Part shown: in pieces, positions 9,307 to 61,300 of the stretch
Layout: every line of letters starts with the position of its first letter
How positions within the stretch are numbered: the first letter of the stretch is position 1
Origin: Owenia fusiformis
Taxonomy: Eukaryota; Annelida; Polychaeta; Sabellida; Oweniidae
Assembly: GCA_903813345.2 (NCBI GenBank)
Contig: CAIIXF020000006.1
Location: 4,237,096-4,301,095, forward strand
DNA: 64,000 nt
Reading direction: 5' to 3'
Program-made: the position numbers and the translations under genes
The notes under the pieces: model-generated
The model's database searches: none
The model's input: the letters and a program-made list of their open reading frames with translations, nothing else
What the model was told of the DNA's origin: nothing

Positions 9307-10029
9307 TCAGGACTTTTATACGCTGTGCGTTCCCTTCACATAGAACATGGTTTTGACCTGAACATTAATCACTCTTTTAGAATCAAACGTGCATTAAAGG
9401 CAGTATTGATGGAACAGGATAATACCAATCAAAAATCAGCTATAACAGCAGATATTTTATGTAAAGTGGTACAAGCTCACAATTTTGTCAACGTGGATCA
9501 ATTAATGTTCTGCTCAGCCATGTCGATAGCATTCTTCGGTTTACTTCGTTGCTCAGAACTTCTGAATCTCAAAAACAGTGATGTTACAATAATAAAGGCA
9601 GAAGCTAAAGTTGACAAACATATGATAGTTAAACTAAGTATCTCAAAAACTGATTCAATAGGTAAAGGTTCAGATGTAGTGATAGGATGTACACAAAAAC
9701 AGCTTTGCGCAGTTTGTTTGACAGAAAAATACTTAGAACATAGAAGTGATAATAATGAATCTTTGTTTGTGCTCACTAATGGGTGTTCATTAAACAGATC
9801 TTGTTTCATAGATCACGTGAAAATATCCATGGCTATGTTAGGGTATGACTCGAGTAAGTACTCGGGCCATTCGTTTAGAATTGGCGGAGCAACTTCAGGT
9901 GGCAACGTTAGTCTGAAAGACTGGGAGATAAAAGCCATGGGGAGGTGGTCTAGCCAATGTTATCAACGTTATGTGCGTACGTCAGTCGACTACTTGAGCA
10001 AGTTATCAGCTAAATTAACTGAATGTTGA
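9307..10029 (+). CDS. tyrosine recombinase catalytic domain, 5'-truncated (mobile element)
   Basis: An intronless open frame follows a TAG at 9304 and ends with TGA at 10027-10029. Counting from 9325, the catalytic set is visible: Arg in 'FGLLRCSELLNL' (~75), Lys in 'SISKTDS' (~108), His-x-x-Arg in 'GHSFRIGGAT' (~182/185), Trp in 'GRWSS' (~208) and the presumed nucleophile Tyr in 'YQRYVR' (~216). This is the integrase fold of DIRS/Ngaro- and Crypton-type elements. No in-frame ATG precedes the conserved region and the N-terminal DNA-binding domain is missing, so this is a truncated copy. No reverse transcriptase is adjacent. A 137-bp direct repeat follows downstream. Confidence 0.75.
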   Translation, partial: SGLLYAVRSLHIEHGFDLNINHSFRIKRALKAVLMEQDNTNQKSAITADILCKVVQAHNFVNVDQLMFCSAMSIAFFGLLRCSELLNLKNSDVTIIKAEAKVDKHMIVKLSISKTDSIGKGSDVVIGCTQKQLCAVCLTEKYLEHRSDNNESLFVLTNGCSLNRSCFIDHVKISMAMLGYDSSKYSGHSFRIGGATSGGNVSLKDWEIKAMGRWSSQCYQRYVRTSVDYLSKLSAKLTEC

Positions 10030-10571: not shown

Positions 10572-10951
10572 GATATGGCAATTGTAAATTAATGGACTTG
10601 TAAAGCAACTGGTTCTAGACGTAGGAATTACCTGACGTAGTTGACTGAACAACCATGTAACTTGTCGAGTGTGCCATCAAAGAAATTATTGATTTCTCAT
10701 TTCTATTTATCCCTAGTGGTAGTCTTCTAAATTATAGTAGCTCTATCTATAAATATTCATAATGTGTAAGTACAGTAATATGGGCGACACAAAACATTAA
10801 GATCAATTTTTGTGTATTATACCATCTAGTATGGTCTATCGTCGTAAATAGTCTTGGTTAATAGCAAAGATGTGGGTTGCGGATTTCTAGTTATCGCATC
10901 TAACTAATTGTTCGACAATTCACACTGTTATATATAATATCTTGAAATTGT

Positions 10952-11600
10952 AGGCCAGTCAATTGGTGATTTCACATCTGACAAATTGCAATAGTTTTGA
11001 AACATGGTTTAATTGGTGAATTGATATATATGTAGCAACATATTAAAAATATAGGAAAATATATGTAGTGGACAAATATGAAATTTCACTTCTTAGGTAC
11101 CCCCACCCCAATTTTGACTAGGGGTAAGGGAAAAAATAATTTCTCCATATTTGAATAGTTTTTACATGTTTTTATGTTGTATTAGTTCAGGGGAAAGATT
11201 CAGAGTGAATTTAAATCTACTTTTAATGCTTTTTTGTGCCAACAATTGACAATTTACCTCCCAAATACACCAAAATATGTTGTCATATGGCCAAAATATT
11301 TTATAATAATGTATATATTTCTTAATTGCTTTATCCAAGAGCCATGGAAAAATTCATGGTAATACTTCTATATACAGGTAATACACATATGGAATGCCGA
11401 CTTCTCAACTTGCATATTGTTGAAGAAAAAAATATTTAAAATTTCAATTTTTTGCCCCGCCCACTTTTGGGGTGACCTTACTTTTGCAATATAACTTCCA
11501 ATATATACCACATATGTCCTCAAATTTGATATCAAAATACAGATATAACCCATTCTGTCTTGTACATAACTTTTTATTGGAGTTATTTCCCCTGTCTTGT
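10952..11600 (+). repeat. left long terminal inverted repeat of the 5.56-kb transposon
   Basis: Pairs with the right end in inverted orientation. Similarity is clear to about 11,540 and traceable to about 11,600 through a TTTTTATT-G/A-GAGTT block. The two arms have diverged considerably, so the insertion is old. Confidence 0.7.
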
Positions 11601-11864
11601 TAAAAATCTCATAATATGTTGGATGCAAGATGAAATATTAGGGTCCAATTACCGTTTCTTAATAACAACTGCGATATCACATCTCTATAGCTTAAATCAA
11701 CTCTTATTTGAGAATACAACATGGTTACCTGACCCATAAACACTATCTCTTAGTTATTTAATCATTAAACAGTTTTAAAATGAAACTTAGAGACACTAGC
11801 GCCATCTAAAATTCAAGGGTCGACTTCAAAGTTGACTTCAAACGTCACTGATCTTATTAGCAAG

Positions 11865-14800
11865 ATGAAAGAGTTCATAAATGACAGTGAAATTGAACCC
11901 TATAGCTTTAAATACATGAAGAAAGAGCTGAAAGCATTCTTTGGTGAGAACCTTATCATCAGTGATATCCTAGGAATACAAAATGTTGTTACCTTTCATG
12001 ACAATGCTGCCAAAATATTGCATGCTTTTCATCAACACAAAGGAGACCAAGTAGATGAAAAAGAGAAAATTATAGAAATTGCAGCAAGTTTGATAGAAAG
12101 TGCCATAAAGGAAAAAAGGCAATCTCCCCAAACTTATCCTGAATATGACACAATGTCCTCCATCATTGAGTCATTAGACTTTTTACCTGACATTTTGTCG
12201 ATGTTTTTGAGCAAGTTCTTTGTTGGTAAAGATGTTAGAAACAAAGTTGCATCAATTGGACAAGCTATTATGCAGGCCACTCGTCCAAATGCCCTTTTGG
12301 CCCCATTACAGCTTGGTCTAGGTGTGCAGCTCCATCATCATTTCCAGTCAAGATTTTTGATTGACACACTTAACAAACATGGGTTTACTTGCTCATATTC
12401 TGAGGTCCAGAAGTTTGAAAGGAGTGCAGCATTGATGCAAAACACAGACATACCTAACATTACTCCTAATCATGTTGTACATCATGTTACAGATAATGTA
12501 GATCACAACATTCAAACTCTCGATGGCAAGAATACGTTTCATTGAATGGGCATTATTGCAACAGTCACACCTAAAGTGAGAACAACTCGGCCAGTGATCA
12601 GACATGATGTGTCTTCAGAAGACATAGAGGCAATTGGTCGCATCAATAGTCACTACTATTCAAATGACAATGATATGTTTAGTAGTTTGAGGTATGAAGA
12701 GCTTGTGAGACAATCATTTGATAAACCTTTAACAGGCTTTGATCTTGTGTGGAAATCATCCTTGCTTTTTAAGACTCCTTGTCCACTTTGGTCAGGATTT
12801 ATGCAGATGGTTTATAAGGGGGAACATCCTGGTGAATCTTCAGTCATGTTTCTACCTATGATAGATATGGACCCAGGTGACATGTCATGTATCTACTCCA
12901 CTTTGAAGTTTGTTGCATCTTATGCTGGACGGTACAACTGCACTCCTGTCATCACATTTGATCAGCCACTTTGGTGGAAAGCAAACAAAATTGTAGAAAA
13001 TGAGCTAGAAGACAGTGATTTTCACAAAATGGTTGTAAGACTAGGGGGGGTTCATACCGAGATGAGTTTTCTTGGCTCTGTAGGCCACATCATGGAGGGG
13101 TCAGGATTAAATGCTGTCCTAAGCTTGGTATATGCTGAAAATACAGTTGGTCATATGTTATCTGGTAAGGCAGTTTCTAGGGCAGTTAGAGGCCACCTTC
13201 TGATTGATAGTGCATTGAATACTATGTTAGCAGCTCAGATATATGACATTGATCTTGATCAGACCAATGAAGAACAAAATGATTCACAAGAACAACCATT
13301 TGTAGAAGTAGAGAATGATACTACCCATATTGACCTGAAGGAATTGCATCTTGTCCTTTATAAGATAACAAATCATGTAATTCATGACAATGATGACAAA
13401 ATTGATGTTGCAACAGTCTTTGGAGAAAAGCTTCAAGCTGAGAAGGACTCATTTCAAAACCTAAAAACAGCAAAGCTATGGTTGCAATATATGGATATGA
13501 TCGACCTATTTAGGAACTTCATAAAAGGAGAAAGGATTGGGAGTTCTTCATCTCCAATGTTTGCATGATATGTTGCCATATTTTGCAGCAGCAGGTCACA
13601 ATCGATACCTAAAGTCTGTATATCTTTATCTCCAAAAAACAGAGCCCAGAGGTATATGCCCATTTTATGAATGGGCTACATGTCATCCGTCGATCAGATA
13701 GGTCACAGCAGCCCCAGCTAGTAAGATATAGTTGTAGTGAGGTCATGGGCAGGACTATCTGCAGATCTCATAATTGAGCAATGCCTAATGCGAAGCATCA
13801 AGTCAACAGGAGGTCTCACGAGAGGCCGGGGCATGGGTGAAATTCAGCGTCTGGTGTGGATTCTTTCCTCACCTGCATGTCGAGAGATAAGCAGTGCAAT
13901 GCAAGAACTCACTGATATAACATATGCCACAAGTGAGCAGCATAAAGATGCAACACCAACAAGAATCACCAAAGATGTAACAGATGCTAAGTGTATCCTG
14001 AAATACCTTGTTGAAAGAAATCCCTTTTTTCCTGAACAATCATTACGTAACATCGCAACAGGAGTTGCAGCTTCTTCTGTCAATGCATATGACGCAAAAT
14101 AATTAGGCAACGTGATTGTGGCATCTATGATTGGGAAAAGGGTATCTGAGTGTTCCTTCAAAAGAAAAAGCCAAGCTGTGACCATGGGATCAAAAACTGC
14201 AGTCAAGGTAAACAATGAAGAAATACACATAGATCCTATTTTGCTTTTTCAACGCATTACCATAGCTGGTACACAATCTTTTGATTTGTCAGAGGCTCTA
14301 GGTTATGAGCTTTGTTCCTTTCCACCGGCTTTGTTTGAATCAAAAGGTGTAATGAGACCAGCGGTAGAATCACAACTGGCAGAAGCATTGTGGACACCAA
14401 AAATATCTTCCTTACAAGGGCCAAGTGACAAAGATGTTCAACATGTGATTGATGGAGGTGCCCTTCTTCATCGCATTCCTTGGCAAAAAGGTTTTACATG
14501 GGAGAACATTTTAAGCCAATATGTATACTATGTGCAGTTGAGGTACCAAAATGCTAAAATAGTATTTGATGGGTACCAAAAAATTGCCCTAGCGCAAAAG
14601 ATGCAACTCATCTTCGTAGAAATGGAGGGAACACCGGGACTGTAATCCAATTCATTAACACAATGAAACTCCAATGTAAGAAAGAAGATTTCTTAATGAA
14701 TCAAACAAACACGCAGAATTTTATTTTTCTGCTGTCAGAGCGACTAGAATCCATTGGTTGAGGTTTTCCATGCAGAGCAGATGCAGACCTTTTCATTGTA

Positions 14801-15556
14801 GAGACTGCAATTGAATGTGCTGCAACTTCTGAGACCATTCTTGTAGGAGATGACACTGATCTCCTTGGGCTGCTTATTCATCGCTCCCACAACATTGAAC
14901 ACAACATATTCTTCAAGCCTGAACCAAAGCAATCAACACACAAAACCAAAATATGGAACATCAAAGATACAAGACTATCTTTAAGTGACATAATGTGCAG
15001 CAACATCCTATTCATTCATGCGTTTCTTGGCTGTGATACTACATCAAGGCTATTTGGAGTTGGGAAACGGGTCTCAGAAAGGCAGATAAAGAAATATGAT
15101 GTCTTTCAGAAAAGTGCTTGTACATTTAAATTGCATGATGCCACATAAAACATGATATCAAAAGAAGGAGAAGCTGCCTTTGTATCATTATTAGGAGGTA
15201 AGCTTGGGCAAACCTTAAACAAATTGAGATTACAAAAGTTTCATGAGAAAGCTGCCTCTAGTCGAGTCTGTTCATCCAAAAGTGCTTCCACCGACATCTG
15301 ATGCTGCAAAGTACAAGCATGGATGGGGGTAAATCTTCCACCAGAAGAATGGGGATGGGAAATGAACAATGGCCACTATCTCCCAGTTGCTACAACTTTA
15401 CCGGCAGGACCTTCTTCACTCTTAAAGGTGATCAAATGTAATTGTAAGACAGGTTGCACAACAATGCACTGCACATATCGAAAGAATGGAATGGACTGTT
15501 CCATGGCATGTGGTGAATGTAGAGGAATATGTGCAAATATAAATAATGATGACTAA
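11865..15556 (+). pseudogene. broken transposon gene: unknown N-terminal region, XPG/FEN-like nuclease, Cys8 domain
   Basis: The frame is open from 11832; the first in-frame ATG is 11865. Breaks: in-frame TGA 12543-12545, where the frame continues unshifted; frameshift at 13,566-13,570; further breaks near 13,650-13,735; in-frame TAA 14100-14102; frameshift near 14,580; TGA near 14,758; TAA near 15,146; and a gap near 15,300. The N-terminal ~560 codons contain 'MIDMDPGD' (~12,861), 'TFDQPLWWKA' (~12,954) and 'RLGGVHTEMSFLGS', in a region I take to hold the transposase. The nuclease part shows 'VIDGGALLHRIPW' (14,445), 'VFDGYQ' (14,562), 'KDATHLRR' after the frameshift, 'ADADLFIVETA' (14,776), 'VGDDTDLLGLL' (14,843) and 'GCDTTSRLFGVGK' (15,029), matching the order and spacing of FEN1/XPG acidic motifs. 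The C-terminus (15,323-15,556) has eight cysteines in a CxC...CxxC layout. This copy cannot make a full protein. Confidence 0.8.
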
Positions 15557-15859
15557 TTGCCATCCGCAATCTCTCTTGAAGTCCAAAATCTGCAATGCCC
15601 TGTAGCAGTCTGAGATACTAGTATTTTAAGATTTCACAAATCTTTCTAAATCAGTGATTGTACTTTCATTTTAAACAAATACACTATTATACCTTCACAT
15701 AAGCACATGAATAAGTGCAATGGCCCATAATTGGCACATTTGATTTGGTTTGATATAAATATATGTCAAATCATACAGTATTAGCCTTACGAAATACCCC
15801 CCCCCCCATTTTCCAGATTTTTCAAATTGCAGTTATAATTTGGTCCAAAACAGGAGTCC

Positions 15860-16512
15860 CAAACTCTAATAAAAGTTAATATTGGATGAAATATGTCCAA
15901 ATCATTCTTTAAGTTGTAGAATTGTTAGGAAATACTGCATAGTTTGAAAATTATTTAGCGAAAGTAAGGTCACCCCAAAAGTGGGTGGGGCGAAAATGTA
16001 AAACTTATATATTTTTTTTCTTCCCCAATATGCCACTGATGATACTGGTATCCCATATATGTTATGTCCATATATACATGTATCACCATGATTTCTTTAA
16101 TCATTTTGGAATGCACCAGTCTAGAAATATAAGAAAAGATACATGAAATGTCAATCATTTAATGACTCATTTGGGTTCGTCGAGGGTGAAACAAAAAATT
16201 CTAAGCCTCAAATGAAAGTTTACTTAGGTAAAAATTTATGTTTTGTCATTCTATTATCATAATATAACAAGAAAACTTGAAAAAACTATTCAATTATAGA
16301 TAAAATAATTTTTTTTGAACAAATAGTCAAATTTAGGGGTGGGTCGTAGGGGGTACCTATGAAGTAAAATTTGACATTTGTCCACTAATTATATTTTCCT
16401 ATATTTTTGATATGATATAAGGTGAATATTGATCAACAATTTAAACTGAGTTTGCAAACTATTGCAATTTGTCCTAGGTTAGGCTGTTTTTTTTTCACCA
16501 ATTGACTGGCCT
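15860..16512 (-). repeat. right long terminal inverted repeat of the 5.56-kb transposon
   Basis: Reverse-complement partner of 10952-11600, ending TCACCAATTGACTGGCCT at 16512 directly before the ATTGT duplication. It carries the same GGTACCCCC and GGGGTGACCTTACTTT landmarks in inverted order. Confidence 0.7.
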
Positions 16513-16539
16513 ATTGTGTTCGATCATTGAGTATCATAT

Positions 16540-17150
16540 GTAATAATTCAGTACATTGTATCATTTACTTGTCATCATTGTGAACCACTTCATATGATAT
16601 AGTTAAATGCGCATGCGCATTTATTAAATGCTTGCTAATCATTGTGCACCAGTTCATAAAACAGTTGATTGCATTATATCATTTACTCAGTGGCTGTTGA
16701 ACATTGCGCATCACTTCATATAAAAGGTTAAAAAGGTTAAATGCGATATATCAATTATACCAAGTGGCTGCTGATCATTGTTCACCAGTTAATGAAATAT
16801 ACTCCTCAAAAAAGTTAAGGACCTCATAGGTTTACATGTTAACCCCCATATTTGTTTGAACGACTGTTTTCTAAGCGGGAAACAAAAGAAATCCCAATAA
16901 AGTAAATAAATCTGTATCTTGATTCTATTCCCTATAAAGTCCGCAACGTTTCAATGTTATATCTCCATTACATTCTGTCAAACTTTGATGTCAAAATTGA
17001 GGAATTTCATGAAATGTAACAAAAATGGCAGATCCCATGTTATAACTTGTAAACCTATGAGGTCCTTAACTTTTTTTGAGGAGTATAAGACATGATACTC
17101 GTTGATGGATACAGCGAGTGGCTTTGAAACTTCAACACTTCCCGTGAATT
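16540..17150 (+). repeat. degenerate ~80-bp tandem repeat interrupted by a MITE
   Basis: A unit of the form 'ATCATTGTGCACCAGTTCATA...ATATCATTTACTCAGTGGCTG' recurs about four times in degraded form (about 16,560, 16,635, 16,690 and 16,765). The last unit is split by the 282-bp MITE at 16,802-17,083 and resumes with 'GATACAGCGAGTGGCT'. Confidence 0.45.
16802..17083. mobile_element. 282-bp MITE, TA target duplication, mariner-type
   Basis: The ends are near-perfect inverted repeats starting CTCCTCAAAAAAGTTAAGG and running over 40 bp (to 'CATAGGTTTACA'). They are flanked by TA on both sides (16,800-16,801 and 17,084-17,085). There is no coding sequence. TA duplication and size suggest a non-autonomous Tc1/mariner element. 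Confidence 0.85.
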
Positions 17151-22378: not shown

Positions 22379-22407
22379 TATTACGATTAATTTGACATTT
22401 TTTTATC

Positions 22408-24962
22408 CAGCACAACTGCAAGGTTCAAATCTCACAACAGCATATACCAAGCAAAAGATGTGTCGAGTACAGTCTCCCCTCCAATCACAATAACCAGCAC
22501 AACTGCAAGGTTCAAAACTCACAGCGGCATATCCCAAGCAAAAGATGTGTCGAGTAGAGCATCCCCTCCAATCACAATAACCAGCACCACTGCAAGGTTC
22601 AAAACTCACAACGGCATATACCAAGCAAAAGATGTGTCGAGTACAGCCTCCCCTCCAATCACAATAACCAGCACCACTGCAAGGTTCAAAACTCACAGCG
22701 GCATATACCTAGCAAAAGATGTGTTGAGTGCAGCCTCCCCTACAATCACAATAACGAGCACCACTGCAAGGTTCAAATCTCACAGCGGCATATACCAAGC
22801 AAAAGATGTGTCGAGTACAGCCTCCCCTACAATCGCCATAACCAGAACAACTGCAAGGTTCAAATTTCACAGCGGCATATACCAAGCAAAAGATGTGTCG
22901 AGTACAGCCTCCCCTCCAATCACAATAATCAACACAACTGCAAGGTTCAAAACTCACAACAGCATATACCAAGCAAAAGATGTGTCGAGTACAGCCTCCC
23001 CTACAATCACAGTAATCAGCATAACTGCAAGGTTCAAAACTCACAGCGGCATATACCGCAAAAAATGTGTCTAGTATAGCCTCCCCTCCAATCACAATAA
23101 CCAGCACAACTGCAAGGTTCAAAGCTCACAGCGGCATATACCAATCAAAAGATGTGTCGAGTACAGTCTCCCCTCCAATCACAATAACCAGCACAACTGC
23201 AAGGTTCAAAACTCACAGCGGCATATACCGCAAAAGATGTGTCTAGTACAGCCTCCCCTCCAATCACAATAACCAGCACAACTGCAAGGTTCAAAGCTCA
23301 CAGCGGCATATACCGAGCAAAAGATGTGTCTAGTACAGCCTCCCCTCCAATTACAAAAACCAGCACAACTGCAAGGTTCAAAACTCACAACGGCATATAC
23401 CAAGATAAAGATCTGTCGAGTACAGCCTCCCCTCCAATCACCTTAACCAGCACCACTGCAAGGTTCAAATCTCACAACAGCATATACCAAGCAAAAGATG
23501 TGTCGAGTACAGCCTCCCCTCCAATCACAATAACCAGCACCACTGCAAGGTTCAAAGCTCACAACGGCATATACCAAGATAAAGATGTGTCGAGTACAGC
23601 CTTCCCTCAAATCACCTTAACCAGCACCACTGCAAGGTTCAAATCTCACAACGCCACATACCAAGCAAAAGATGTGTCGAGTACAGCCTCCCCTACAATC
23701 ACAATAACCAGCACCACTGCAAGGTTCAAAGCTCACAACGGCATATACCAAGCAAAAGATGTGTCGAGTACAGCCTCCCCTACAATCACAATAACCAGCA
23801 CCACTGCAAGGTTCAAAGCTCACAACGGCATATACCAAGCAAAAGATGTGTCGAGTACAGCCTCCCCTCCAATCACAATAACCAGCACCACTGCAAGGTT
23901 CAAAACTCACAGCATCATATACCAAGCAAAAGATGTGTCGAGTACAGCCTCCCCTACAATCACAATAACCAGCACCACTACAAGGTTCAAAGCTCACAAC
24001 GGCATATACCAAGATAAAGATGTGTCGAGTACAGCCTTCCCTCCAATCACCTTAACCAGCACCACTGCAAGGTTCAAATCTCACAACGCCACATACCAAG
24101 CAAAAGATGTGTCGAGTACAGCCTCCCCTACAATCACAATAACCAGCACCACTGCAAGGTTCAAAGCTCACAACGCCACATACCAAGCAAAAGATGTGCG
24201 TCGAGTACAGCCTCCCCTCCAATAACAATAACCAGCACCACTGCAAGGTTCAAAGCTCACAACGGCATATACCAAGCAAAAGATGTGCGTCGAGTACAGC
24301 CTCCCCTCCAATCACAATAACCAGCACCACTGCAAGGTTCAAAGCTCACAACGGCATATACCAAGATAAAGATGCGTCGAGTACAGCCTTCCCTCCAATC
24401 ACCTTAACCAGCACCACTGCAAGGTTCAAATCTCACAACGCCACATACCAAGCAAAAGATGTGTCGAGTACAGCCTCCCCTACAATCACAATAACCAGCA
24501 CCACTGCAAGGTTCAAAGCTCACAACGGCATATACCAAGCAAAAGATGTGCGTCGAGTACAGCCTCCCCTCCATTCACCATAACAAGCACAATTGCAAGG
24601 TTCAAAGCTCACAACGGCATATACCAAGCAAAAGATGCGTCGAGTACAGTCTCCTCTCCAATCACCTTAACCAGCACCACTGCAAGGTTCAAATCTCACA
24701 ACGCCACATACCAAGCAAAAGATGTGTCGAGTACAGCCTCCCCTCCATTCACCATAACAAGCACAACTGCAAGGTTCAAAGCTCACAACGGCATATACCA
24801 AGCAAAAGATGCGTCGAGTACAGCCTCCCCTCCAATCACTTTAACCAGCACAACTGTAAGGTTCAAATGTCACAATGGCATATACCAAGCAAAAGATCCG
24901 TCGAGTACAGCCTCCCATCCAATCACATTAACCAGCAAAACTGCAAGGTTCAAAGCTCAAAA
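22408..24962. repeat. tandem array of an 87-bp unit, about 29 copies
   Basis: The unit contains 'ACTGCAAGGTTCAAA', 'CATATACCAAGCAAAAGATG' and 'TCGAGTACAGCCTCCCCTCC' and repeats every 87 bp. Because 87 is 29 codons, both strands show long frames: a Ser/Thr-rich plus-strand peptide (...STASPPITITSTTARFK...) and a Cys-rich minus-strand peptide (...FEPCSGAGYCDWRGGCTRH...). One- and two-base indels (for example extra 'CG' at 24,196, 24,290 and 24,548, missing bases at 23,059) shift both frames repeatedly, which argues against coding. Variants with 'CAAGATAAAGATG' and 'CACAACGCCACATACC' recur in the same order (about 23,575, 24,010, 24,360), showing multi-unit duplication. I read it as a minisatellite. 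Confidence 0.9.
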
Positions 24963-25737
24963 CTGCCTGCTGACTGCCAATAGTAACCAGTTTTCGCTCT
25001 TGGCAATGAACTTTGAAAAACAGTTGCCTATTTGGAAATTGAATGAATCTCAATATGTTCAACTGGGCATTCTTGTGTTCAGCCTCAGTCGTGAAACCAA
25101 ACCAACAGCATTAGATACAAATACCTCAACAAAATGAAATACTGTAATAATATCTTAAACTGCATGCTCTTTGTTCTTGTTTTAATATTACATGCTGTTA
25201 ATTATAGCTTCATTACGATGATTCAATAAGTGATAGTATGAACGCATACCAAAGAGGTGTTGCATCATGGCTTGTTACATAACTACTCTATCACATAGGC
25301 TTGTATCTAGATTTCGAACAACTCAATCCCTGAGGCTAGTGTACTTAATGAAATGTTTAGAGTACCTGTGTGTACTGAGTCGTGTATATGGATATATGTT
25401 TTGTTAATCCATTTCAGACACACATCACATGGAAAAGAATGAAAAGATGGAGGAATGATTGGCATAGCATTATCGTAAACTCTATCTAAATACTATTGCA
25501 TTCCCGGGCCGTGACTCAATATCCTCACTTGTTGAGGACCAACAACGTTAACATTTTTCAAATGGAAGATGCGGCATGGGATTTAATACTTCTGATATTT
25601 ACCCTCTTATTTTTTGTTTGTGGAGTATCATATATTTCCCATTTGGACGTTCGTCACATTTCATATTTGTACCCTACCCATCCATCATAATGCAAATGCC
25701 CTGTCCTATGCCGCATCCCTAATAAAGTTGTACTCAC
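24963..25737. other. non-coding sequence right of the tandem array
   Basis: No exon, RNA or repeat family recognised. A 64-codon frame at 25,496-25,690 has no codon or homology support. Confidence 0.35.
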
Positions 25738-42212: not shown

Positions 42213-44579
42213 TTATTCTGTGTCCTTCTTACGTTCCTCTCCAATGACATCGCCATCATTCTTGTCCGATCTTACAATTTGACAGATAACAAGTTTGATC
42301 ATAAGACAAAGCATGACAACCGCTTCCATCACAGAGAATACAGACATTCCCAAGTAGAAGCCGAATACATTGCCAATGTCCTTTATTACACTGTCGTATG
42401 TGTATGTCCTTTCTTCGTGGACAACCCTTACATCCAGTGATTCAAAATGGATGTTCAGTTTCATAAAATTTGTCTCGATTAATTTGTCCAAATATGTAGC
42501 AACTGTGAACGACGATGTTCCGTAAGTATACTTAAAATGCTCTAGATACATCAATACTTCAAATACCATGCGAAAGTTAGTGTTGAGGATCAAGGTTAGC
42601 AAACTCTCGGCCGTCTTCCTAAATTCAGATTTCTCTCCGCGCAAGATATGTTCAATGTAGCTAGGTGAATAAATTGTATTACGTCTACCAAGCCCTATAA
42701 GTTTATCCAAAAGAGTCCTAATATGTTTATGTTTCTGAAAGAACTTTACAAATCCTCTGTGTCCCCCGGCATCGACGACACTTTTCTCAGGCCACGGAAT
42801 AGTGTTGATCAGGTGAGTATACTCATTTTCTTTACACTCTCGTTTGCATTTGCATGAGTCTTTGTCAGATCTCATCCAATAATATTCGCACTGCAACCTC
42901 GCTATTATTTCATCGACAGTATTTGTTAACCGTTTTCTTAGTTCAGGCGTTGACAAAATTGTGTCAATGTAATATTCAAAATCCCCAGGTCCTGCGGAAT
43001 CCAGATCAATCCCATACTCTTCCAGAACCATATGTATAGAAATCGTACGATTATCATTGTAAGACTTAAAAATGTCGGATATGTTTCCACAATATTGAAT
43101 TTTGTTAAAGTCGTGATCTTTGGGGACTAGGAACATAGGGGAAATACACAGACAATTTTCCCTGATTCTTTTTTGTATGCACTGGTCTATACATATCTCA
43201 TATGTATATTTATACGTCGTGTTAGTATTGAGACGTGCATTGGTGCATTGGCCATAGGGTGGCAGAAGTCGTGTTCGTTCAGATTGGGTTATTCTGACTG
43301 CGGCAAGTCTGCCTGGCGTGACGAAAAACCCATCGCTGTACGGTCTTGGCATTGCCCCTGGCTTATGAACAACAACCTTAACACCATCGCTTGGTTCAGC
43401 ATATTGAGATTCAAACTCATAGCCACCATTCCCCATACTGATTCTTTGAAGTGGGTCATGGCGGCCCGTATACAGAAGCAATACAAGTCCCTTGTCCGGA
43501 CCAACCTCCTGAACATGTCCGATTGACTCATTGACGTTTAATGTAAAACAGCGTCCATACACTGTATTTGTTATTGAAATGTCAATCTGATCATTACACG
43601 CCTTATCATTGTAGGTGCATTCCAGAACAAGGTCTTCAGGTTTGATTTGTTGAAGAAACTGTCCACTGAAGTAATTTATCGGAACGTTTTCCACTACCCA
43701 TCCATTTGAGCGCAACGGGTCACGTAAATGAAATATCTTCTTCATGTTTATATTTGTCTCATCAAATTTTGAAAGTCCGAACAATTCTGGATTGATGGCA
43801 AATTCGTACATATTTCGAGCTTGCACTGCGCTGAAAAAGTCTTCTACAATTATTTCGTCTGTATAGTTAAGCCCTAAGGCGTAGTGCATTGCTATCACGC
43901 CTGCTTTTTGTCTTAATCTCTTTTTCAAATCAGAAATAGAGTTTGGAATGAAAGGGCACAATGTCACTGCTGGAAAAGCTAGCGGATGTGTTTTGATGGA
44001 TATCCCATCTTGTGTAGGATATGCATAATATTTGACGACAACGCCAGCTATAAGGTACACTGACATGCAAACTACGCCAAAAAATATAACACCCCATGCA
44101 GCCATCGAGGGTCTACTTTCTGCTCGAACTATACGTTTTGGTCCATTAACAGATGCTACCTCGGCATATTCTGACAATTTGGAGCATACTGTCTTTCGTA
44201 ATGATGCATTTGATTGACCCTTTGCACTAACGGTGCCAAACTCTTCAGTATCTGGTGTCGATGAGATATTGGGAGTGAAGACAATGCTGTGAGCACAGCC
44301 TTCCGATTTAGCATCAGTGTTTGGAAGGTCGTTGGAGTCACAAGTACCATTTGCTCTATCTTCAGTACTTTCTTGATTTGATTTTGTAGCCGCAATAGCA
44401 TTATTGTTTTCTTTATTTTTGGGTCTTTCCAAAGCGTTCAGCTCAATTTCAACAACAACCTTTTCATAGACATGTTCAATGGCTTTATTTTGACCCAGCC
44501 ATTCATCATGTTCATTGATTTCATCTTCATATAATGGAGCAATGATATCTGCAGGGTCATTTCCAGGTCCTTTGATCAT
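42213..44579 (-). CDS. DEG/ENaC-family sodium channel, intronless, 788 aa
   Basis: A single uninterrupted frame encodes a two-helix ligand-, acid- or peptide-gated cation channel subunit of the plasma membrane. The N-terminal cytoplasmic part (~155 aa) is longer than usual. The pre-helix gating motif is 'EYAEVASVNGPKRIV' (~138-151), where family members normally have His-Gly and this one has Asn-Gly. TM1 is about 160-184, followed by the family signature 'FPAVTLC' (202-208). The extracellular domain carries the typical Cys pattern, including 'YEICIDQCIQKRIRENCLC' and 'CKCKRECKENEYT...WP'. Before TM2 the selectivity signature appears as 'GFYLGMSVFSVMEAVVML' (G-x-S). The charged C-tail is short. 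FMRFamide-gated (FaNaC-like) or ASIC-like subtype cannot be decided by eye. ATG 44,579 has A at -3; the earlier ATG upstream stops after a few codons. The lack of introns suggests a retrocopy origin or lineage-specific intron loss. Confidence 0.93.
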   Translation of the reverse strand: MIKGPGNDPADIIAPLYEDEINEHDEWLGQNKAIEHVYEKVVVEIELNALERPKNKENNNAIAATKSNQESTEDRANGTCDSNDLPNTDAKSEGCAHSIVFTPNISSTPDTEEFGTVSAKGQSNASLRKTVCSKLSEYAEVASVNGPKRIVRAESRPSMAAWGVIFFGVVCMSVYLIAGVVVKYYAYPTQDGISIKTHPLAFPAVTLCPFIPNSISDLKKRLRQKAGVIAMHYALGLNYTDEIIVEDFFSAVQARNMYEFAINPELFGLSKFDETNINMKKIFHLRDPLRSNGWVVENVPINYFSGQFLQQIKPEDLVLECTYNDKACNDQIDISITNTVYGRCFTLNVNESIGHVQEVGPDKGLVLLLYTGRHDPLQRISMGNGGYEFESQYAEPSDGVKVVVHKPGAMPRPYSDGFFVTPGRLAAVRITQSERTRLLPPYGQCTNARLNTNTTYKYTYEICIDQCIQKRIRENCLCISPMFLVPKDHDFNKIQYCGNISDIFKSYNDNRTISIHMVLEEYGIDLDSAGPGDFEYYIDTILSTPELRKRLTNTVDEIIARLQCEYYWMRSDKDSCKCKRECKENEYTHLINTIPWPEKSVVDAGGHRGFVKFFQKHKHIRTLLDKLIGLGRRNTIYSPSYIEHILRGEKSEFRKTAESLLTLILNTNFRMVFEVLMYLEHFKYTYGTSSFTVATYLDKLIETNFMKLNIHFESLDVRVVHEERTYTYDSVIKDIGNVFGFYLGMSVFSVMEAVVMLCLMIKLVICQIVRSDKNDGDVIGEERKKDTE

Positions 44580-44790
44580 TGTGTATCATTTCCTCATGCA
44601 GTTTCCTACAGTCGATGTCCTTGCTTGATTGTATATCCACGTGTTACACGTTGAGATTTCCAACCTGATCGAGTAATTGTTTGCTCGTGGATTAATTTAT
44701 GAGATGAGACCTTTAATGCAACCAGAGTTTTATGCAAAACTTTATGACACCAACTACTTACAAATGACTGAAGCGAAAACCAGAACCTCC

Positions 44791-55300: not shown

Positions 55301-58300
55301 TTGTATTTTTACATTTGATAATAATAGGCTAGCGTTTAATTCAGCCCTCCCATAAAACAGTGAGTTAGTTGAAAATGAGGCAACACCAATTGAATTTCTT
55401 GACTTAGCACCTTCTTCAATTCCAACTAATGATTATGAAAGTCTTATTTTTAATCCACTGACTTTAGAAAATAGACAGAAGGATGAACCTCTCACTGCAC
55501 ATGATTTTGAAATAAATCAATCAGTAAATCAGTGCAACTACAATAATATAGATCAATTTAACTATCACTTACAAAAATCAAATGATCTTAGTATGTTACA
55601 CATCAACATGAGGAGTGTATCTAAAAATCAATGGAAATTCCATAATATGTTGCAATTGTTAAAAAATAATCTTTCAATTATTGGTATGACTGAAACATGG
55701 CTTACATCAAACTTAGAGCCTATTTATGAGGAAAATGATTCTAATTATAATAGTATTTTTAACTCTAGGAAAGATAGACCAGGGGGTGGTGTTGCACTTC
55801 ACATTTTAAAAGGCATTGACTTTAAACATAGGGATGACCTCAAATTAGATTATAAAGCATGTGAATCACTATCTATTGAAATTCCTAGGAAAAATGAGAA
55901 AAATATGGTTATTACTATAATATATAGACCACCAAATACAGACATGGCATCTTTTCTTGAAAGTTTTGAGAGCCTACTTTCTAAAATTGATAGGGAACAT
56001 AAACTTTCTTTTATAATGGGTGATTTCAACATTGATTTACTTAAAACTGAAAGTGATGCGCAAACGTTGAATTTTCTTAATCTATTATACTCCCAATCTT
56101 ATAACCCATTGATTTTTAAACCTACTAGAATAACAGAAAAAAGTGCTACGCTTATTGATAATATTTTTTCTAATTCAAATAATGTAATCAAAAGTGGTCT
56201 TCTTTCATTTCCCATTTCTGATCACCATCCTATCTTTGCCCTTACATCACACTATCAAAATGTTTGTGAAAACAAACAAATCACTTTTAGGAAATATTCA
56301 TTGAGTGCAATTAATAATTTTAGTGATTCACTGAAAGATATAGATTGGACGGGTATAATTAATGAAAAGGTTGATGTAAATGTGGCTTATAATTTGTTTG
56401 CAGACAAAATTAGTAGAAAATATGATGAATATTTCCCTGTAAAAGTCAAAAATACAAAAATTCACAAGAACTCAATTAAGCCTTGGCTCTCACATGGTAT
56501 ACTAACATCTGTGAAACAGAAAAATAAACTTTATCGAAATACTTTGAAACACCCAACGAAACAGAATCTAGCTGAATACAAAACTTTTCGAAACAAACTC
56601 CATAAATTAATCCGCAAAGCAGAAAGGAAATATTTTTGTGATAGATTTACTGAAACAAGCAATAATATCAAGAATACTTGGTCAGTTATAAATGACTTAC
56701 TTCACCGCAAAAAATGTGATTCAGTTTTTCCAGATAAATTTTATGATGGAGATGATATTTTGACTGATAGAAAAGATATTGCTAATCATTTTAACAGATT
56801 TTTTTCTAATGTTGGACCTAAATTAGCATCAAAGATAAGTTCAAAAACGTCCCCTTTTACATTTATGGAAATCAATGAATCTTCTTTAGAACTTACTCCT
56901 GTGAGTAAGAATGAAATCGAAAATTTAATGTCAGTTTTAAAAGATTGCTCACCAGGCCTAGATGAATTCAAACCAATAGTAGTTAAACATGCAAGAAATA
57001 ACTTACTTTTACCATTTGTTCATATAGCAAACTTGTCTATCCATACAGGGGTTTTTCCCACTAAGTTGAAAACAGCCAAAGTTATCCCACTTTTTAAAAA
57101 AGGAAATACTTCAAAATTTTCAAACTATAGACCTATATCTCTACTTAGTGTCTTTTCTAAACTCTTAGAACAGATCATGAAAAATAGATTAATAACATTT
57201 ATTGAAACATACAAACTTTTATTCAAAAATCAGTTTGGTTTTAGAAAACATTATTCAACTTATATGGCAATCCTCTCCTTCTTGGAAGAAGTGAGGATAT
57301 CTCTAGATAAAAGCTCAACTCATGCTATTGGAATATTTTTAGATTTATCCAAAGCCTTCGATACAGTAAATCATGAAATTCTTCTAAAAAAACTTGAAAA
57401 TTTTGGAATTCGCAATGTCGCAAAAAATTGGTTTGAAAGCTATTTATCTGATAGGAAAATCATTACTTCTTTTAACAACACTCTATCTGAAGAAAGTATT
57501 ATCACTTGTGGTGTACCTCAAGGGTCTGTTTTAGGCCCCATCTTATTCATTCTCTATATAAATGATTTACATAAGGTTTCAAATATTCTTAAATTTACTA
57601 TTTTCGCAGATGATACAAATATCTTATGTTCAAACAAAGACCTTCATGATCTATATAGAAATGTAAATCTAGAAATGGAAAAGACATTAGAATGGTTCAA
57701 ATCAAATAAACTTTCTTTGAATATAGACAAGACAAATTATATGCTATTTACAAGATCAAAGTTAAATATTGATGAAAATCAAGATTTTAATATAAAAATA
57801 GGGGGTAATATTCTTGAAAGAGTAATGCATACAAATTTTCTGGGAGTAACAATTGATTGTAAATTAAAATGGAATGAGCACATAAATAAGGTTATACATA
57901 AAATATCTAAAATTATTGGTATTCTGGGAAAGATTAAATATAAATTGAATACAAAAACCATGATTACCATTTATAATTCACTTATATTATCACAATTGAA
58001 CTATTGCAACATCATATGGGGTAATGCATGTAAAACCTTTTTGAATAAATTGCTTTTGTTACAAAAACGTGCAGTGAGAATAATCACAAATTCTGACTTT
58101 TTAGCACATAGCCCACCTCTTTTTAAACAACTCAATTTTCTAGATATTTTTGACATACATAAGCTTGAAGTTGCAAAATTTCTTTATCAATACACAACAA
58201 AACCCGATGGCTTTCCTTTTGACATATTTGAAAATTATTTTACTCCAAATTTGATATTTCACAAACATGAGACAAGATTCCAAAATTGTCTTCACATGAA

Positions 58301-61300
58301 AAAATTTAGAACAATTATAGGTCAAAACTCAATAAAATATTCAGGTGCTCAGCTTTGGAATAATCTGCCAACTTGTTTGAAAACATTACCTTCTATTAAC
58401 TGTTTTAAAAAGAATTTTAAAATTCATATGACATCAACCTATGATAAACTGAATTACTGACAAACATATATGTAGATTTTATATATTGTTATCAATTTTA
58501 TTCTCATTTAACTGAGTAAATATATTTAAATTGTTCTTTTTTCTCATTTCCATTTGACTCAGGTTAATATTTAAATGTTTTCACGCTGATACACTTACTA
58601 AAAGTGTCAAGTGTTATTAGGTATTTGATTTTAATTTTAGAGAATAAATATTTTTAATAAAAAAAAAAAAAAAAAAAAAAAAGATCTAGTCACAAGCCCT
58701 TTAGTAGATGAAGCTGCATATAAGAAAATACAGGCGAATATAAGATATTTTATAATTTATGGCGCAATATGTGAGCGGAAATTTTATTTTGTTCATTACA
58801 ATTCTTATATAATAAACAGACAAGTAAAACAACTATTTGCATTCATGAATTTTCGCTGTCATACATACGCTAATATAGGCAAGTAAATCAATTGTTATAG
58901 ATGTTGTAATGTCACATATCATATTAAAATAGAGGTAATAGAATTTTAAATCACCTTGTCTAGGAGTATTGACGAAAAAATTATATTTTTTGCCCAGCAT
59001 TCAAGTTATACTCAATCTATTGAACTCGATTTAGATATATTTATGCCATCATACCGCATGAAGGCCACACTTTACGATGGTGAACCAAACAATTGCAAAG
59101 GTTCATTTTATGGGGGGGGCTTTTATCATGATATCGGGGATATAAAGTCAGCACGTGTCTGTTTTCGGGGCAATTAAAACTGATTTCATTTTCAATTTCA
59201 GAGCAGAAATTTTAAGTCACATGCCATGACGTGTGTGGTTGAAACAATTTGCTGTGAAATATGATTTTATAAATAATAAAGGACCCACAGTCCTGTGCTC
59301 ACACAGTGTTTTGTGCAGCCAATGATGATTGACTTTATACATGAGAAAGTTCCCTGAAAATGACTAAATCCTACTTTTTGTCAAATTTTATAGAGTAAAC
59401 ACCAAAAATTGTAATTTCAAGAGCTTTGAAATCTTCAGAGAACATAAGTTGCATATACAGCAACTACTACAAGTTATTTGAAAGTTCTACTGCAACAAAG
59501 TGTCTAGTATTTACAGAAAATTGACTTTTTGACGTCAAAATCAGCAATTTCTCGGAAACAGGACGAACTTGTGAAATGATGATGATAGGTCAAATAGGCA
59601 TTATGGATATGCATAAAATGAATGTGGATATGACTCAATCCGAATAGCAGTTTTAATTTGTGCGGCCAATGTTGACGGATGGACTGACCAACGGACGGAT
59701 GCCTGGTTGATCCCATAGGCTCACTGTGTGAGCCAAAAATGAAACCCTGGCTTTCAAAAACTAGATATTTGCTCTTATGTTGAGCCAATTACTGTACTCC
59801 GGGTAAATTTCGACGCTATAAAATTTCGCGATTTTTCAAAATTGCAATTTCGCGGCTATTTAATTTCGCGGATTTGAGTTGATGACATTTCGCCGGTAAT
59901 TTTAACCTGTTCAGAATCCGAATCATGTTTGTATTTCCCACGTTTAGGGCATTTATTTGAGTAGTTTTGAATAGCTTTTTCAACTTTTTGTAGGATATCA
60001 TTGTTGTCAACAGTTCTTGCCTTCGTTGGCCTAATAAGCCAATTCAAAATGTTAGACATTTTAGGCCTTATTTGAATTATCGCCCAAAAACACTGGACGA
60101 ACTTTTTACACCGAACGAAACTTATCAAAAGTCCCGGGTCAAATCCCCGGGGATTTAAAACACAAATTTCGCGACGATAAATGTTTCGCGATTTTACTAC
60201 ATTTGCGAACAAAGCTAAATTAAATCGCACGCGAACAATACCCGGAGTACAGTATTGTATGATTGAGGCTATTCTCATCAATTTTGGTAATAAATATCCA
60301 AAAAAATAATAAACAGATGCAAATGCGATAATCCAGTTTACAAACTATTCTAAACATATGTAATTTCCCATATTAATGTAAAAATAGGACCCGCGGTCCT
60401 GTGCTCACACAGTTTGGAACCTTCAGAGGAATGTATATCCTGACTTTCAAACAAAAATATTGATTTGAATTTGTAGTCTCGAACTTTGAGAAACTTAGAT
60501 AGCAACATTGTGTGACCTAGTTTGACGACCTTTGACCTTGATAATTTTACTTATTCAGAGCTCAGTAAGACTTGAGAATTCATTTGCACCCACTTGAAAA
60601 TGAGAAAAACATGACAAATAGGCATATTTTGTCCAAATTTGGTGTAAATTGTGAAATAAGAATTTTCCACCCACTTGAGGTAAAATCCTTGGAGAACACT
60701 TCACTATATTAGGTATATAGAAGAAGTAAAGATATAGAGATATATCAGAATTTTTACCAATTTTAAATGCATTTGGGTGACCATTTAAGAGTTTTAAAGG
60801 CACAAATAATTCTACTGATATATATTTATCAAGAGGATGCATCGAATTACAATATGTGTCATTCTTATCATGTTTTAGTGTGAGAACTCTATTATCACTC
60901 ACTTCATTTTTAGAAGTTCAATCTTTTTTCTTCGGGTCTGGAACTAGTGAAGTTAGCTCATTGGATGAAATGACAAGTAGTGTTCTGGGAAAATAGGTAG
61001 CGAATCGCTATCTTCACAATGCTAATATTGAGGCCTGCAAAAGGTTGGCAAGATATAACATCATGTTGGCTAGTCCAACAACATTAGACCTAGTCTGGGG
61101 CATCATTTCTTATCTGACATGTCTTATGGCCCCGACTAGGTCAAGCCTCCATCGTCATTTTGGCATAAGCGCATATAGTTCCGCCTGTTTCCACAATCGG
61201 AACTAACTAAACCCTGATAAGATGATATTATGAGTTTATGACAGAAATAACGTGATCAAAGCAAGCATTCCCTATGAATACAAATACATCATAAATATTC

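Follow-up and report, generated by a model that had tools for sequence, protein, structure and literature searches.

A decayed DNA transposon of probable AcademX type with a diverged FEN/XPG-like nuclease part in the annelid Owenia fusiformis

Results and Discussion

A transposon bounded by long inverted arms lies at positions 10951-16513 of a 64,000-nucleotide stretch of Owenia fusiformis contig CAIIXF020000006.1 (referred to here as the window, to which all coordinates apply). The element is most probably (probability roughly 0.8) a decayed, non-functional AcademX-type DNA transposon of the cut-and-paste class, whose one protein would have combined a DDE transposase with a nuclease of XPG/FEN-like type and a Cys8 motif. 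This is the best reading of the element's anatomy, its length and the spacing of its nuclease motifs. The element is ordinary in kind and adds a member to an already described group.

Ends and inverted arms

The boundary features of the element are as follows.

10946..10951, no strand: left target-site copy (TTG at 10948-10950, or up to ATTGT at 10947-10951; boundary ambiguous)
10951..11700, plus strand: left inverted arm, from alignment; inner limit not sharp
15745..16513, minus strand: right inverted arm, from alignment; inner limit not sharp
16513..16517, no strand: right target-site copy (TTG at 16514-16516, or up to ATTGT at 16513-16517)
Identical islands in the left arm: 10951-10969, 10980-10997, 11045-11063, 11066-11077, 11151-11163, 11460-11484
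Islands in the right arm: 16495-16513, 16456-16473, 16390-16408, 16376-16387, 16281-16293, 15961-15985

The outermost 19 bases, TAGGCCAGTCAATTGGTGA, are the same at both ends in inverted orientation, and the element with matched ends measures 5,563 bp. When every boundary around both ends was listed for duplications of 3-8 bp, the longest match was 5 bp. Two partitions are symmetric: TTG (3 bp), with TAGGCC ends and the element at 10951-16513, and ATTGT (5 bp), with AGGCC ends and the element at 10952-16512. The 4-bp readings ATTG and TTGT fit too, and three more 3-bp partitions match with shifted, asymmetric ends. The duplication length is thus ambiguous between 3, 4 and 5 bp from this single copy. 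An earlier note on this DNA had described precise ends flanked by an ATTGT duplication. The ends are borne out by the 19/19 terminal bases; the exact boundary is not, several partitions being admissible, and ATTGT stands as one fitting reading, not as the sole length.

Aligned from their outer ends, the arms (10951-11700 against 16513-15745) match at 508 of 719 aligned positions, and the alignment opens 27 gaps. Its score is 405; when one arm was shuffled base by base 200 times, the best score was 72. With blastn, 10980-11501 pairs with 15944-16473 at 67%. The arms are 650-750 bp long or slightly more, a rough figure given that the anchored profile has no sharp inner limit and that the alignment reached the inner end of the left slice supplied. 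The inverted repeats of about 650 bp first noted in this region are therefore real; they agree at only about 71% of aligned bases. The portions of the literature searched gave no published arm length for Academ families. Identity along the arms is uneven. Outside the terminal 19 bases the arms contain three identical stretches of at least 18 bases (18, 19 and 25), a number reached in none of 20,000 column shuffles; the five stretches of at least 12 were matched in 36 of 20,000 such shuffles, and one of at least 25 in 41 of 20,000.

Adjoining the right end of the element, a 21-base motif recurs in four diverged copies at intervals of 62-74 bases (16574-16794). Just upstream of the element, an open frame at 9307-10029 has a weak, sub-threshold match to tyrosine recombinases (Phage_integrase, E 0.00057) with an HSFRIGGA-type motif, and could belong to a Crypton- or DIRS-like element.

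A single broken gene

Between the arms, the plus strand carries open pieces of 253, 340, 125, 180, 128 and fewer residues over 11784-15553, of which the 340-codon piece runs without a stop. These pieces can be read as one gene with the following parts.

11865..15556, plus strand: single broken transposon gene, from the first in-frame ATG (11865) to the last stop (15554); gene start inferred
12450..13325, plus strand: probable RNase-H-like (DDE) transposase domain, from residues and a weak model; stop at 12543
14451..15070, plus strand: FEN/XPG-like nuclease part, from motif order and spacing
Nuclease motif starts: DGG 14451, FDG 14565, DADL 14780, DDTD 14849, GCD 15029, GVG 15056
15437..15532, plus strand: C-terminal eight-cysteine motif, from the residue listing

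The order of parts is an N-terminal piece, the probable DDE domain, a linker, the nuclease part and the Cys8 motif. The coding region is interrupted by four or more in-frame stops (12543, 14100, 14759 and 15146) and by about six frame changes spread throughout, in agreement with the initial description of coding pieces read across frameshifts. The last two frame changes, near 15255 and 15320, are placed tentatively by comparison with relatives. Because of these stops and frame changes the copy is judged to be decayed and non-functional. The eight-cysteine C-terminus seen at first inspection was recovered in full and is probably zinc-binding. About 38-40 extra coding bases at 13699-13745, with AGGTCA on each side, perhaps represent a small insertion or slippage.

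The extent of this decay bears on the age of the arm divergence. Had both arms started out identical, the divergence they show today would imply that the 3,602 coding letters gained some 23 new stops (range 13-39 over 300 simulations) and some 41 indels that change the frame. The observed stops (at least 4) and frame changes (about 6) fall far below these predictions, so that the arms had probably diverged for the most part before insertion, as judged from one copy and assuming equal decay of the arms and the coding region. Selection on an active family probably maintained the conserved islands, again as judged from one copy, and these may be transposase binding sites.

The FEN/XPG-like nuclease part

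The nuclease part is damaged by a frame change near 14576 and the stop at 14759. Read across these, it contains the motifs DGG, FDGY, ADAD, GDDTDLL and GCDTT in order, with GVGK 9 residues past GCD. Start-to-start distances are 38/71/24/59/9, compared with mostly 52/73/21/48-62/9-10 in archaeal FEN1, as measured in the 15 sequences matched by a strict pattern out of 19 loci from 18 archaeal genomes (the other four gave no match). A tolerant six-motif test, whose spacing tolerances were chosen after the distances had been seen, is passed by the element, by 15 of the 19 FEN1 sequences and by none of 100,000 shuffles. When only the final four motifs are required, 16 of 19 FEN1 sequences pass and again none of 100,000 shuffles. 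The element thus has six motifs in common with archaeal FEN1 and XPG nucleases (PF00867), in the same order and at close spacing, but differs from them in having no significant profile match.

A rival view, that these motifs arose by chance or convergence and that the middle of the protein is not a FEN/XPG nuclease, is very unlikely. The profile tests do point in that direction. A Pfam scan of four read-through pieces gave no match up to E 10. A profile built from the 19 archaeal FEN1 sequences scored 0.1 bits, which 83 of 1,939 reported shuffles equalled or exceeded (3,000 were made; the best reached 7.4 bits), and an earlier profile from 13 sequences, at 1.3 bits, is counted as a failure likewise. 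In hhalign the probability was 0.2%, with the motifs left unaligned. Against a chance origin stand the shuffle counts for all six motifs and for the last four, together with one PIN-family match in NCBIfam over the nuclease part, which is weak (E 0.04) and below the family cut-off. We take this part of the damaged copy to be a genuine FEN/XPG-like nuclease that has diverged strongly. The XPG/FEN-like character proposed in the earlier note accordingly holds for the ordered acidic motifs and their near-FEN1 spacing, and fails for alignment to XPG/FEN profiles.

The probable DDE transposase part

Candidate catalytic acids, picked by inspection, are D at 12492 or 12501, D at 12960 and E at 13137. 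Of two single-sequence AlphaFold2 models, the first (mean pLDDT 31.8) was useless. The second is poor (mean pLDDT 42.5) and places the strand CTPVITF before a D; it also has a short stretch of alternating strands and helices as in the RNase H fold. A PDB fold search with it returned nothing at or below E 0.001. This second model is a weak hint of an RNase H fold.

Relatives and classification

No second copy was found by blastn within the 64-kb window. In non-eukaryotic collections, no relative was confirmed among phages and plasmids by tblastn, among viral contigs (searched with three pieces) or among genome contigs (searched with one 120-residue piece); negatives from such collections carry little weight here. 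Two weak hits in PHROGs were to families of unknown function, and sequence searches of the PDB gave either nothing or hits that were weak, at E 0.53 or more, and to proteins judged unrelated. The assignment as an Academ relative with XPG, Cys8 and DDE parts, as originally proposed, is therefore the best reading of anatomy, length and motif spacing, while the profile and homologue searches gave it no confirmation.

Academ proteins carry XPG and Cys8 parts, and the element has an eight-cysteine motif at 15437-15532. Among the papers listed in a literature search, none contained both 'Academ' and 'XPG'. In the available text of one study, AcademX elements have duplications of 3 or 4 bp and encode a nuclease, AcademH elements have duplications of 9 or 10 bp and a helicase, and duplication length is linked to this difference between nuclease and helicase (PMC10045372). 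The ends of the present element fit 3 or 4 bp, and there is thus no conflict with the AcademX duplications described there. Curated bivalve Academ consensuses have a mean length of 5,565 bp (n=100), and of the molluscs studied there, almost only bivalves have Academ, according to the available part of that source (PMC10294476). The 5,563 bp of the element match this mean, length being no strict criterion. Set beside AcademX as far as these sources describe it, the element would likewise be a nuclease-encoding DDE transposon, its ends admit a duplication of 3 or 4 bp and its length is similar to that of bivalve Academ; no difference was demonstrated.

The earlier note had suggested that a 5-bp duplication and very long TIRs might mark a separate lineage. 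The argument from duplication length is rejected, as the ends equally fit 3 or 4 bp. In its wider form the proposal would make the element a separate superfamily or deep DDE lineage with 5-bp duplications, whose FEN-like nuclease was gained independently. This is improbable: ATTGT is one of the two symmetric partitions and family profiles give no match, but the 3-bp reading is just as symmetric, and domain order, nuclease and length agree with the available descriptions of AcademX and bivalve Academ.

An AcademH-type element is very remote as an explanation. AcademH has the superfamily and the DDE type proposed for the element (PMC10045372), but the helicase and the 9-10 bp duplications reported for it in the available text are seen nowhere in the element. 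The pieces scanned with Pfam contained neither a helicase nor any other domain, and no end partition among lengths of 3-8 bp exceeded 5 bp, which excludes 9-10 bp at the same boundaries; AcademH was rejected on these two grounds. KolobokP, KolobokD and KolobokE likewise combine a DDE transposase with an added nuclease. As described in the available text, their nucleases are of other kinds (His-Me finger, DEDDh, PD-D/ExK), and KolobokP has direct repeats at its ends whereas the present element has inverted arms (PMC9587614).

Other features of the window

A tandem array at 22407-24963 consists of 29.4 copies of an 87-bp unit with 91% matches, and is open in several frames over long stretches because 87 is a multiple of three. 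A long intact LINE-type frame of 1,034 residues with endonuclease and reverse transcriptase domains occupies 55356-58460. A DEG/ENaC-type sodium channel reading frame of 790 residues lies on the minus strand at 42213-44585; this frame and the LINE-type one both point to animal DNA. The 147-residue open frame at 1889-2332 appears by eye to contain a ParB-type domain and had no Pfam match at E 0.1.

Proposed mechanism and significance

The domains suggest a possible order of events for an active AcademX-type relative. The protein would bind the conserved islands in the long arms, and the DDE site would cut the transferred strands and link them to target DNA cleaved with a short stagger. The FEN/XPG-like nuclease could then trim or cut the other strand, acting on a 5' flap or branched intermediate, and gap repair would leave the 3-5 bp duplication. 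A link between the second-strand cutting step and duplication length appears in the available text of PMC10045372. It is conceivable, though unlikely, that the element represents a distinct AcademX sublineage, with independently evolving arms tied by short islands that serve as spaced binding sites, TAGGCC ends, a 5-bp duplication and a FEN-like nuclease that sets the stagger or processes the second strand.

As a single dead copy, the element is mainly one more member of a group already described. Should intact relatives bear out this reading, the islands in the diverged arms would mark candidate binding sites, and the nuclease would offer a testable handle on second-strand cutting by a DDE transposase that works with a flap-type nuclease.
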